From Vibrio pelagius (GTDB taxonomy: Bacteria; Pseudomonadota; Gammaproteobacteria; Enterobacterales; Vibrionaceae), in NCBI RefSeq assembly GCF_024347575.1, contig NZ_AP025503.1, forward strand, positions 2,108,001-2,172,000: a DNA stretch of 64,000 bases, given 5' to 3'. Both the position numbers and the translations under genes were made by a program. Positions within the stretch are counted from its first letter, which is position 1. Every line of letters starts with the position of its first letter. Below, one piece after another: positions 49,126 through 56,586 of the stretch. A model generated the notes under the pieces. That model worked only from the letters and a program-made list of their open reading frames with translations. It did not search any database and was not told the origin of the DNA.

Positions 49126-50115
49126 CTAGCCGCCAATGGAAGCAAGGTGCGGCGTCATACCGCTGTTGCCGTCGTGGAGAAAGTGACTCACTGACTTGGT
49201 TTGAAGCTCAGACTGAATGCGTGCGATAAGCGCATCTTCCTGCTCATCCTCTTGGAGAAGATCACGTAGCTCAACACCATGATCGCCAAAAAGACACAGA
49301 TGAAGTTTACCTGTTGCAGATACACGCAGGCGGTTACAGCTTTCGCAGAAATCTTTCTCATAAGGCATGATCAAACCAATCTCACCTTTGTAGTCAGGAT
49401 GAACAAATACCTGTGCAGGGCCATCATTCACCGCTTTGACTTTCAAAAGCCAACCGTTAGCGATCAGATGGTTTCTGATCGCTACGCCTGATACATGGTG
49501 TTTATCAAACAGATCGTCCATTTCACCGGTTTGCATCAGCTCAATAAACCGCAGTTGGATAGGTTTGTCTTTGATCCAGTTAAGGAATGAAGGCAGCTCT
49601 TGGCTATTAAGATCTTTCATCAACACAACGTTGACTTTGATCTGCTCATATCCGACTTCGAACGCTTTATCGATACCGCGCATCACCTCAGTGAACTTAT
49701 TCTCACCTGTGATTTGGTGAAACATGCGCGAATCTAAACTATCAACGCTGACGTTGATGTTCGTTAGACCAGCTTCGCGCCACTGCGCTACCTGCTTCTC
49801 CATGCGATAACCGTTAGTGGTGGTTGCCACTTTTTGGATACCCGGAGTGCTGGCTACTGTATTAATAATTTCAGTAAAATCTTTACGTAGGCTTGGCTCG
49901 CCACCAGTAATACGAATCTTGGAGGTACCACAATCAGCAAACGCTCTCACGATGCGTTTGATCTCGGGAACACTGAGAAAAGACGAGTTTTTTTGCCCCG
50001 AAGGCTTGTAGCCATCAGGTAAGCAATACGTACATTTAAAGTTACAAACGTCTGTAACTGACAAGCGCAAGTAATAAAACTTGCGATGGAATCTATCTTC
50101 GAATTGTTGCGCCAC
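49126..50115 (-). CDS. moaA: GTP 3',8-cyclase (radical SAM)
   Basis: First step of molybdenum cofactor synthesis: radical-SAM cyclisation of GTP. The protein is 329 residues from GTG 50115, the same length as E. coli MoaA. An upstream TTG would add five residues but would place the start inside the riboswitch-like leader. The N-terminal cluster motif is CNFKCTYC near residues 24-31, with GGEPSLR after it. The second cluster has FCESCNRLR plus a later Cys in LHLCLFG. The C-terminus is Gly-Gly, as usual. Confidence 0.96.
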
Positions 50116-50118
50116 GGA

Positions 50119-50250
50119 ACACCTTTCCAAACACGGGAGGCATAATCATTTCCAATTAAGCCCTTGTGACAACATGTCACTGGCTCTCAACGCTTATCAA
50201 TACAGCAAAACACCACTGTGCGACTTAGCATGTAAGAGCTCGGAGTTATG
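50119..50250 (-). promoter_or_regulatory. Probable molybdenum-cofactor riboswitch before moaA
   Basis: On the minus strand the leader holds ACTCCGAGC (50238-50246), a GTGACA/TGTCAC hairpin (50166-50180, extended by AGCC/GGCT), GCCTCCC (50135-50141) and TTTGGAAAGG (50122-50131). The last element doubles as the ribosome site in front of GTG 50115. These blocks match my memory of the Moco RNA motif that precedes moaA in gammaproteobacteria; no covariance-model search was possible. Confidence 0.6.
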
Positions 50251-50452
50251 GCAACTACGGTACACTGAGGCACGCGTAGCAGCTGCGTATAAAATACTTA
50301 ATAATTGTGTGTGAATCTAGTTCTGTTGCCAAAAAAACGAACCTTAACAGCAAAAAAACCGCACCAGACCCTCAAAATAACTCTTGTTGAGTATCTGCCT
50401 ATAAGCATTTACCCTAAATTATAGTTGGTAATAATCTAATAAGAACTAAAAA
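50251..50452. promoter_or_regulatory. Divergent promoter region moaA / ybhK
   Basis: About 200 bases between the riboswitch-like leader and the ybhK start. It should hold both promoters; I cannot place them with confidence. Confidence 0.4.
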
Positions 50453-53288: not shown

Positions 53289-53300
53289 AGTCAAATAATT

Positions 53301-53391
53301 GACCTTCGGGTCACCTAGCCAACTGACGTTGTTAGTGGATGACATTTCCACAAATGTGAGCCAGTAGATGAGTTACTACTGGCTTTTTTTT
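53301..53391 (+). ncRNA. qrr1: Qrr1 quorum regulatory small RNA
   Basis: Hfq-dependent sRNA of about 91 bases that pairs with luxR/hapR-type and other mRNAs. It has a first stem GACC-TTCG-GGTC, the conserved core CCTAGCCAACTGACGTTG with GTTAGT next to it, a second stem GTGGA/TCCAC, and a terminator GCCAGTAG/CTACTGGC followed by eight T. It lies between uvrB and luxO, divergent from luxO, the site of qrr1 in vibrios. Transcription should need phospho-LuxO. The identity rests on recall of the Qrr consensus and the promoter setting. Confidence 0.95.
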
Positions 53392-53435
53392 GTTCAGAAG
53401 AATATTTTTTTGTAGAAAATAGTAGTTGCTACAGA

Positions 53436-55927: not shown

Positions 55928-55956
55928 TTGACAGGTATCGACGGTATTATTAATAT
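55928..55956 (+). promoter_or_regulatory. Sigma-70 promoter of tRNA-Asn
   Basis: TTGACA (55928-55933) and TAATAT (55951-55956) are separated by 17 bases, close to consensus, with a GC-containing discriminator (cgcgtcgc) after the -10, as expected for a growth-rate-controlled tRNA gene. The start should be near 55963, 14 bases before the mature tRNA. Confidence 0.82.
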
Positions 55957-55976
55957 TCGCGTCGCTGACAAGCAAT

Positions 55977-56052
55977 TCCCCCTTAGTTCAGTTGGTAGAA
56001 CGGCGGACTGTTAATCCGTATGTCGCAGGTTCGAGTCCCGCAGGGGGAGCCA
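55977..56052 (+). tRNA. tRNA-Asn (anticodon GTT)
   Basis: A 76-base gene including an encoded CCA end. The acceptor stem TCCCCCT pairs with AGGGGGA, the D-loop has AGTTCAGTTGGTAGA, the anticodon GTT is at 56010-56012 in a CTGTTAA loop, and the T-arm GCAGG-TTCGAGT-CCCGC is perfect. The D-arm and anticodon arm are nearly those of E. coli tRNA-Asn. Confidence 0.98.
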
Positions 56053-56061
56053 AATTTAAAG

Positions 56062-56088
56062 AAGCCGCATCACTCGATGCGGCTTTTT
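56062..56088 (+). terminator. Terminator of tRNA-Asn
   Basis: AAGCCGCATC pairs with GATGCGGCTT around ACTC, followed by T, 10 bases after the CCA. Confidence 0.92.
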
Positions 56089-56097
56089 GCGTTTTAA

Positions 56098-56251
56098 AGC
56101 GACTGGTTTGTACCAAACCAATGTCTCAGAACTGGCCGTCCGCGTTCGAGACCCGACATGGAAAGTCCAAACTCTAGAAAAAAGCTCAATCGAAGGATTG
56201 AGCTTTTTTCGTTTTTAACTGCGACTAACTTGTTCCAAGTTAATGTCTCAG
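56098..56251 (+). repeat. Degenerate spacer repeats with covarying hairpin
   Basis: Two units begin at 56098 and 56221 (period 123). Each has GCGACT, a 7-bp hairpin and AATGTCTCAG. The stems are TGGTTTG/CAAACCA in the first and TAACTTG/CAAGTTA in the second. Three of the seven pairs differ by changes on both sides. Between them lies a T-arm-like GTTCGAGACCCG and another terminator hairpin (56178-56209). Confidence 0.75.
56178..56209 (+). terminator. Terminator-like hairpin inside the decayed tRNA array
   Basis: AAGCTCAATC pairs with GATTGAGCTT around GAAG, flanked by A and T runs. It has the same place in its unit as the tRNA-Asn terminator. Confidence 0.8.
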
Positions 56252-56281
56252 CCGAAACGTCGGACCGCCCTAGCCGCCCGC

Positions 56282-56305
56282 GTTCTAGTCCCGCAGGGGG
56301 AGCCA
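56282..56305 (+). pseudogene. Remnant of a second tRNA-Asn 3' end
   Basis: The T-loop to CCA part of tRNA-Asn is repeated 253 bases downstream, with one change in the T-loop (TTCTAGT for TTCGAGT). The sequence before it (GCCGCCCGC) no longer pairs in the T-stem, and no acceptor 5' half or anticodon is present. The match continues through the terminator: 56030-56095 against 56283-56348 differ at only three positions. Confidence 0.85.
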
Positions 56306-56314
56306 AATCTAGAG

Positions 56315-56341
56315 AAGCCGCATCACTCGATGCGGCTTTTT
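56315..56341 (+). terminator. Duplicate copy of the tRNA-Asn terminator
   Basis: It is identical in stem and loop to the hairpin at 56062-56088, carried along with the tRNA 3' remnant. Confidence 0.9.
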
Positions 56342-56349
56342 GCGTTTTT

Positions 56350-56586
56350 ATTGACCTGAAATCCTCGAAACGTCGTATCACTCTACTCTTAATATCTGCA
56401 TTCTTAGTCTTACATTTTGCAACGATCCTTGGGATTGAGAGCGTCTATACTTGCTACAACCAAGTGAATCAAACGATTAGGCGTAGATTTTTTCATCAAC
56501 TGCCTAAATCCCTAACGATCCTCGGTTGTTATTAGGTGAGCAAAGCAGGATAATATTGGGATCGGAATTTCAAGAATTAATCCATT
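56350..56586 (+). promoter_or_regulatory. Upstream region of the rnf operon
   Basis: About 240 bases without a credible gene, presumably with the rnf promoter. I cannot place -35/-10 elements with confidence. Confidence 0.4.

Follow-up and report, generated by a model that had tools for sequence, protein, structure and literature searches.

Tandem units resembling tRNA-linked repeats, with a covarying hairpin, behind a tRNA-Asn gene of Vibrio pelagius

The window, a 64,000-nucleotide stretch of the Vibrio pelagius contig NZ_AP025503.1, contains a tRNA-Asn(GUU) gene whose downstream tail looks, from its sequence, like a Vibrio version of the tRNA-linked repeats (TLRs) of Escherichia coli. Our main reading, to which we assign a probability of roughly 0.6, is that the tail is a tandem array of TLR-type units that are read through into a structured small RNA or a processing decoy. 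The sequences show the anatomy of these units, their lock to tRNA-Asn, the covariation of their hairpin, and the linkage between terminator and hairpin types; we infer that the units may function as read-through RNA with a selected hairpin.

Each unit copies the 3′ part of tRNA-Asn and combines a 7-bp hairpin at its upstream side, an insert of at least 14 nt at the T arm, the tRNA 3′ end with CCA, which is often decayed, and its own intrinsic terminator. In the proposed mechanism, RNA polymerase passing the first terminator-like stem (T1) would transcribe the unit, and RNases would cut the unit RNA at its tRNA-like 3′ end, as at the tRNA. The amount of the resulting small structured RNA, or processing decoy, would scale with tRNA synthesis. 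The hairpin would be retained because it folds in the unit RNA, and units would be gained and lost via recombination between the repeated tRNA 3′ ends.

Anatomy of the tail and origin of the units

The features of the tail are listed below.

55977..56052, + strand: tRNA-Asn(GUU) gene, source of the units (ARAGORN; Rfam RF00005, 67.2 bits)
56059..56088, + strand: terminator-like stem T1, GCCGCATC type, 13-bp stem with T run (fold; pattern scan)
56099..56129, + strand: unit 1, GCGACT, 7-bp hairpin (56104-56120), and AATGTCTCAG (sequence; covariance search)
56130..56143, + strand: unit 1, T-arm insert of 14 nt, AACTGGCCGTCCGC
56144..56169, + strand: unit 1, decayed tRNA-Asn 3′ part, beginning GTTCGAGACCCG (by eye)
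56177..56210, + strand: terminator T2, GCTCAATC type, 15-bp stem (pattern scan; fold)
56221..56251, + strand: unit 2, GCGACT, 7-bp hairpin (56226-56242), and AATGTCTCAG (sequence; covariance search)
56252..56281, + strand: unit 2, long insert with a small hairpin CCGA/TCGG (56252-56263) and CTAGCCGCCCGC
56282..56305, + strand: unit 2, tRNA-Asn 3′ end (self-comparison, 96% over 67 nt)
56312..56341, + strand: terminator T3, GCCGCATC type (pattern scan; fold)

The order in the tail was tRNA-Asn, T1, hairpin unit 1, T2, hairpin unit 2, and T3, and a full unit was laid out as terminator, hairpin, AATGTCTCAG, insert, tRNA-Asn 3′ end with CCA, and terminator. The final 19 nt of unit 2 (56287-56305, CCA included) were identical to the tRNA-Asn 3′ end (19/19). 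In unit 1, the AACTGGCCGTCCGC insert plus the next base contained a motif, CTRGCCGNCCGCG, that was also present in Pro and Gly tails. This anatomy of hairpin, insert, tRNA 3′ end, and terminators is well supported by the sequence. An earlier sequence-only reading had treated the hairpins as copies of an unnamed element; the hairpin itself stood, and the larger unit, with its tRNA 3′ part and flanking terminators, had been missed. The two stems were found as described there, TGGTTTG/CAAACCA with loop TAC in unit 1 and TAACTTG/CAAGTTA with loop TTC in unit 2, and the GCGACT before and AATGTCTCAG after each were read directly in the sequence. Three of the seven pairs were changed on both sides (G-C to A-T twice and T-A to C-G once). 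The spacing of the copies, given as 123, was 122 from start to start. Compared with 200 shuffles, the two hairpins had z values of −2.4 and −3.0, with 5 and 2 shuffles as good, respectively.

T1 had a fold of −20.4 kcal/mol (z −6.3). The terminator pattern scan called T2 and T3 on the tRNA strand and T1 on the reverse strand only, which would fit some read-through, and this read-through may be small because the T1 stem is very stable. Of the roles suggested for the hairpin in the earlier reading, that of a tRNA-processing signal is less likely, because the hairpin sits past the first terminator, and we favour the idea that the hairpin unit may be a small RNA.

Among 39 distinct tRNAs from the fetched loci of the same genome, AATGTCTCAG best matched tRNA-Asn just before the T loop (8 of 10 positions; next-best tRNA, 6). 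The 5′ flank GCGACT was considered as a relic of the anticodon stem and rejected, since the listed 12 best ungapped matches did not include tRNA-Asn. The tRNA origin is thus supported on the 3′ flank only. In the locus L068, two Asn units retained the tRNA's own ATGTCGCAG; behind it came a small hairpin, CCGG/CCGG in one unit and CAGG/CCTG in the second, and then the tRNA 3′ end. The 14-nt insert of the short units lay between CAG and GTT without gaps in 53 aligned rows, which represented 53 of 66 short units, 13 with odd ends or inserts being set aside; the 25 long units lay outside this alignment. In ungapped comparison with the tRNA end, 9 of 120 units matched at 19 of 19 positions, 24 at 17 or more, 35 at 15 or more, and 34 at 11 or fewer, where shuffled sequences gave a mean of 9.6 and a maximum of 14. 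The exact tRNA end of 18-19 bp that characterizes a TLR was present in window unit 2. Unit 1 is called TLR-like only, because its tRNA end has decayed. The lack of an exact tRNA end in unit 1 and in most relatives counts against the main reading, as does the first of the two L068 units, which had no clear 7-bp stem.

Position and distribution among Vibrionaceae

A DNA search of 148 Vibrio genomes with positions 56092-56281 as the query (E up to 0.1) matched 64 genomes, and many weak matches spanned the terminator palindrome alone. A covariance model of the hairpin built from 36 sequences (set A1) was searched against 329 Vibrionaceae genomes of 13 genera, with stricter filters and 20 first-look candidates scored per genome, and gave 122 matches in 63 genomes of two genera, with up to six per genome. 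Since 266 of the 329 genomes had no hairpin match under these filters and with this number of candidates, the hairpin seems dispensable, which counts against the main reading. Rescoring of 91 loci covering all matched places gave 128 matches, of which three were duplicated in overlapping loci (L145/L203 and L040/L209), leaving 125 distinct places.

The nearest upstream tRNA was tRNA-Asn at 120 of the 125 places, and the hairpin followed it at 40-51 nt (88 places), 155-180 nt (27), or 270-294 nt (5). The location that defines a TLR, immediately behind a tRNA or rRNA gene, thus holds for these 120 places. Of the remaining five places, three (L193, L194, and L197) were at most 160 nt from a contig end, and two were in L025, a locus containing no tRNA, where other DNA broke the terminator just before the first hairpin. 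This interrupting DNA is perhaps an insertion sequence. An exact-pattern scan of genome contigs found 24 stretches, 23 of which held tRNA-Asn and were Vibrio, Vibrionaceae, or Vibrionales by title; the other, on a Bacteroidales contig (L220), had no tRNA and was likely a chance match. The exact pattern gave 0 stretches in viral contigs. A phage search matched 651 records, and the 20 listed spanned only the part of the query with the tRNA and the first terminator.

A mobile palindromic element, as suggested in the earlier reading, would account for a palindrome present in up to six copies per genome, but an element of the REP/MITE type is scarcely credible here. The copies were not dispersed over unrelated sites and their position was tied to tRNA-Asn, at fixed distances in 120 of the 125 places and in 23 of the 24 exact stretches, with none in viral contigs. 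With 20 candidates scored per genome, none of the 125 places could be assigned to a site outside a tRNA-Asn tail, and the five unlinked ones were either short of sequence (three) or behind other DNA (two). The dispersed mobile palindrome was therefore rejected.

The anticodon loop and the T loop of tRNA genes are known crossover sites of integrases. Integrative elements that used tRNA-Asn as their attachment site and left displaced 3′ parts behind could thus have produced tandem tRNA 3′ parts, but such scars are very unlikely to explain the tail, given the three fixed distance classes (40-51, 155-180, and 270-294 nt) and the one conserved inner hairpin.

Covariation of the stem and its linkage to terminator types

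The search expression for set A1 fixed the three inner pairs (TTG/CAA) and TGTC, and A1 was therefore unable to test them. In A1, the covariation score and the number of paired cells exceeded those of all shuffles; neither the double-changed pairs (3) nor the pair types were more numerous than in every shuffle. Set A2 comprised the rescored loci and leans to the structure, as its model was built on A1. In its 96 distinct rows, 97.6% of the stem cells paired, all seven pairs had double changes (149 cells carried one), and the covariation score was 0.529, compared with 0.169 after shuffling and no more than 0.135 when the partners were slid. The A2 rows are related, and the copies are therefore not independent events. 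The earlier proposal that the structure was kept by paired changes is borne out by this covariation among relatives.

An outer extension of the stem by GAC/GTC was rejected, as 8 of 36 sequences broke two of the three pairs and no double changes were seen. Folding the consensus of the whole unit brought only one further stem, of 4 bp, which lies in the tRNA end and has some broken cells. The ATGTCTCAG flank was exact in 75 of 121 distinct copies and TGTC was present in 105 of 121, and in A1 the loop positions T and C and the flank positions C9, C33, and A34 were at least 90% conserved.

A terminator-like stem of at least 8 bp was found within 50 nt upstream of the hairpin in 110 of 119 distinct copies. 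The terminator 3′ arms GATGCGGC, ATTGGGCT, GACTTGGC, and ATGAGGCT occurred with GGT, AAC, TAC, and GCT stems in 9 of 9, 15 of 15, 17 of 24, and 13 of 17 copies, respectively, and the less common arm ACGCGGCT occurred with four stem types among 8 copies. The hairpin type was thus largely predicted by the terminator type, and the two window stems therefore represent two unit types common to other genomes and not one copy that decayed recently. The suggestion of the earlier reading that the units came from related copies elsewhere agrees with this linkage and with the covariance search. Unit types occurred in other orders in relatives (e.g., L024 and L027), as would be expected if recombination at the repeated tRNA end adds and removes units. 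Paired changes also distinguished the terminator stems of one type from those of another, as read from the list.

It is unlikely that the tail serves insulation only, with the terminator stack keeping strong tRNA transcription from the next gene and the hairpin and tRNA pieces carried along as duplication passengers. The presence of three stable terminator-like stems within 300 nt, and of paired changes that separate the terminator stem types as well, is in line with such a role, which leaves unexplained, however, both why a hairpin lacking its own T run should covary and why the ATGTCTCAG and TGTC flank is conserved.

Template switching at quasi-palindromes can yield paired changes in one event. 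The stem might therefore have been perfected by such switching, or by copy exchange, with no functional selection. The 12 distinct fully Watson-Crick stems in the 96 rows are compatible with this origin, and because a terminator type and its hairpin type tend to move as a pair, the copies outnumber the independent events. However, among stems changed on a single side, G-U intermediates (12 cells in 10 distinct stems) outnumbered A-C (3 cells in 3 stems), with a one-sided sign test on the 10 and 3 stems giving about 0.05 on small numbers, and the conserved loop and flank positions in A1 likewise argue against a mutational artefact, which we regard as quite unlikely. The excess of G-U over A-C hints weakly at an RNA in the sense of the tRNA, and the covariance model behind the copy search itself favours G-U.

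Relation to known systems and to other tRNA tails

Passages of PMC8144298 describe TLRs, of which rtT is one (Rudd 1999, as cited there), as known in E. coli since 1978, with 22 in ten loci and no known function, and the term tRNA-linked repeat also occurs in PMC9245011. The same passages of PMC8144298 present rrA, rrB, and rrF as TLRs that lie between dual terminators, are transcribed by read-through, bind Hfq and CsrA, and have modest effects only when deleted, and 3′ETS-leuZ as a small RNA from a tRNA transcript that pairs with RyhB and RybB. Our control scan for tRNA 3′-end copies found 14 in 5 of 11 K-12 loci (tyrT, lysV, serV-argVYZQ, proK, and lysT) and none in the other six, including rrnB, where a passage of PMC8144298 reports one. 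By eye, the proK, lysV, and lysQ units were flanked on both sides by the same terminator, as in Vibrio.

E. coli TLRs (including rtT at tyrT, RF00391), like the Vibrio units, adjoin a tRNA gene and end in its 3′ end; both have an isotype-shared inserted module before the tRNA end, and some units are bounded twice by the same terminator (by eye). However, the E. coli module is by eye unrelated in sequence to the Vibrio module, and the Vibrio Asn units differ in their covarying 7-bp hairpin and their often decayed tRNA end. RtT (RF00391) was absent from the 12 Rfam matches at E up to 5 in 55950-56400, and the same tool detected four RtT in the locus L073. Nothing in the tail except the tRNA reached the Rfam gathering score, and the sub-threshold matches look like chance. 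Elsewhere in the window, a molybdenum cofactor riboswitch (50104-50257, − strand; RF01055, 91.5 bits) and a Qrr quorum-sensing small RNA (53300-53392, + strand; RF00378, 71.6 bits) were found.

Like rrA, rrB, and rrF, the tail belongs to a stable-RNA operon, carries a structured segment bounded by two terminators, and has a repeated 3′ end. In the passages of PMC8144298 these lie behind 5S rRNA, bind CsrA and Hfq in vitro, and have demonstrated expression, whereas the Vibrio units are known from sequence. The likeness to 3′ETS-leuZ would be that of an RNA made from the tail of a tRNA transcript. To our knowledge, 3′ETS-leuZ is not a repeat of the tRNA end. No description of such tail units in Vibrio was found in the open-access literature searched. 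As far as our searches show, three features are new: arrays of the TLR type in Vibrio, their covarying hairpin, and an insert motif common to the tails of several tRNA species. That a second lineage shares the architecture, with a module of its own and strong covariation, suggests that the architecture itself recurs or is maintained by selection.

We tested 35 other tRNA-operon tails of the same genome for a copy of their last tRNA. Six clearly exceeded the shuffled scores (Pro twice, Trp twice, Leu(CAA), and Gly, the Gly copy being nearly full length), three Asp tails were marginal by score, and the remaining tails, including the two other Asn tails, had no tRNA copy above chance. One of these two Asn tails still had the hairpin. 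Tails of tRNA operons can thus hold tRNA pieces that annotation may miss. The tRNA-end copies of the Pro, Trp, Leu(CAA), Gly, and, marginally, Asp tails were in L106, L111, L113, L125, L130, L107, and L123/L127/L129, and the Leu tail had three near-identical units. A small hairpin, CNGG-N4-CCNG-YCC, was found at the T arm in four Pro, Trp, and Leu tails (7 copies). A Trp-tail query matched widely in relatives, with the signal mostly from the tRNA gene itself.

The CTRGCCGNCCGCG motif occurred four times in the same genome, each time within a tail and oriented like the tRNA (Asn twice, Pro, and Gly). Across 61 genomes it had 27 matches in 15 genomes (loci L256-L282), little above the 21 of a reversed-pattern control; 24 of the 27 lay within 344 nt behind a same-strand tRNA (Asn 13, Pro 5, Phe 3, Gly 2, and Asp 1), and three lay elsewhere. 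Its position, rather than its number, is striking. It is conceivable, though doubtful, that Vibrio tRNA operons carry lineage-specific, terminator-gated small RNAs made from their own tRNA 3′ parts, forming a CTRGCCGNCCGCG-linked family across isotypes. If so, the tails would be related RNAs spread between isotypes by insertion, parallel to and independent of the E. coli TLR module. The three Phe matches came from one genome and were, by eye, clean 14-nt insertions at the same T-arm point as in Asn; Asn and Phe units thus had the motif at this one position, and in Pro and Asp tails it lay within the terminator stems. The Asp tail of L271 had CTRGCCGNCCGCG in tandem, and L280 looks like a stray relic of a Gly 3′ end.
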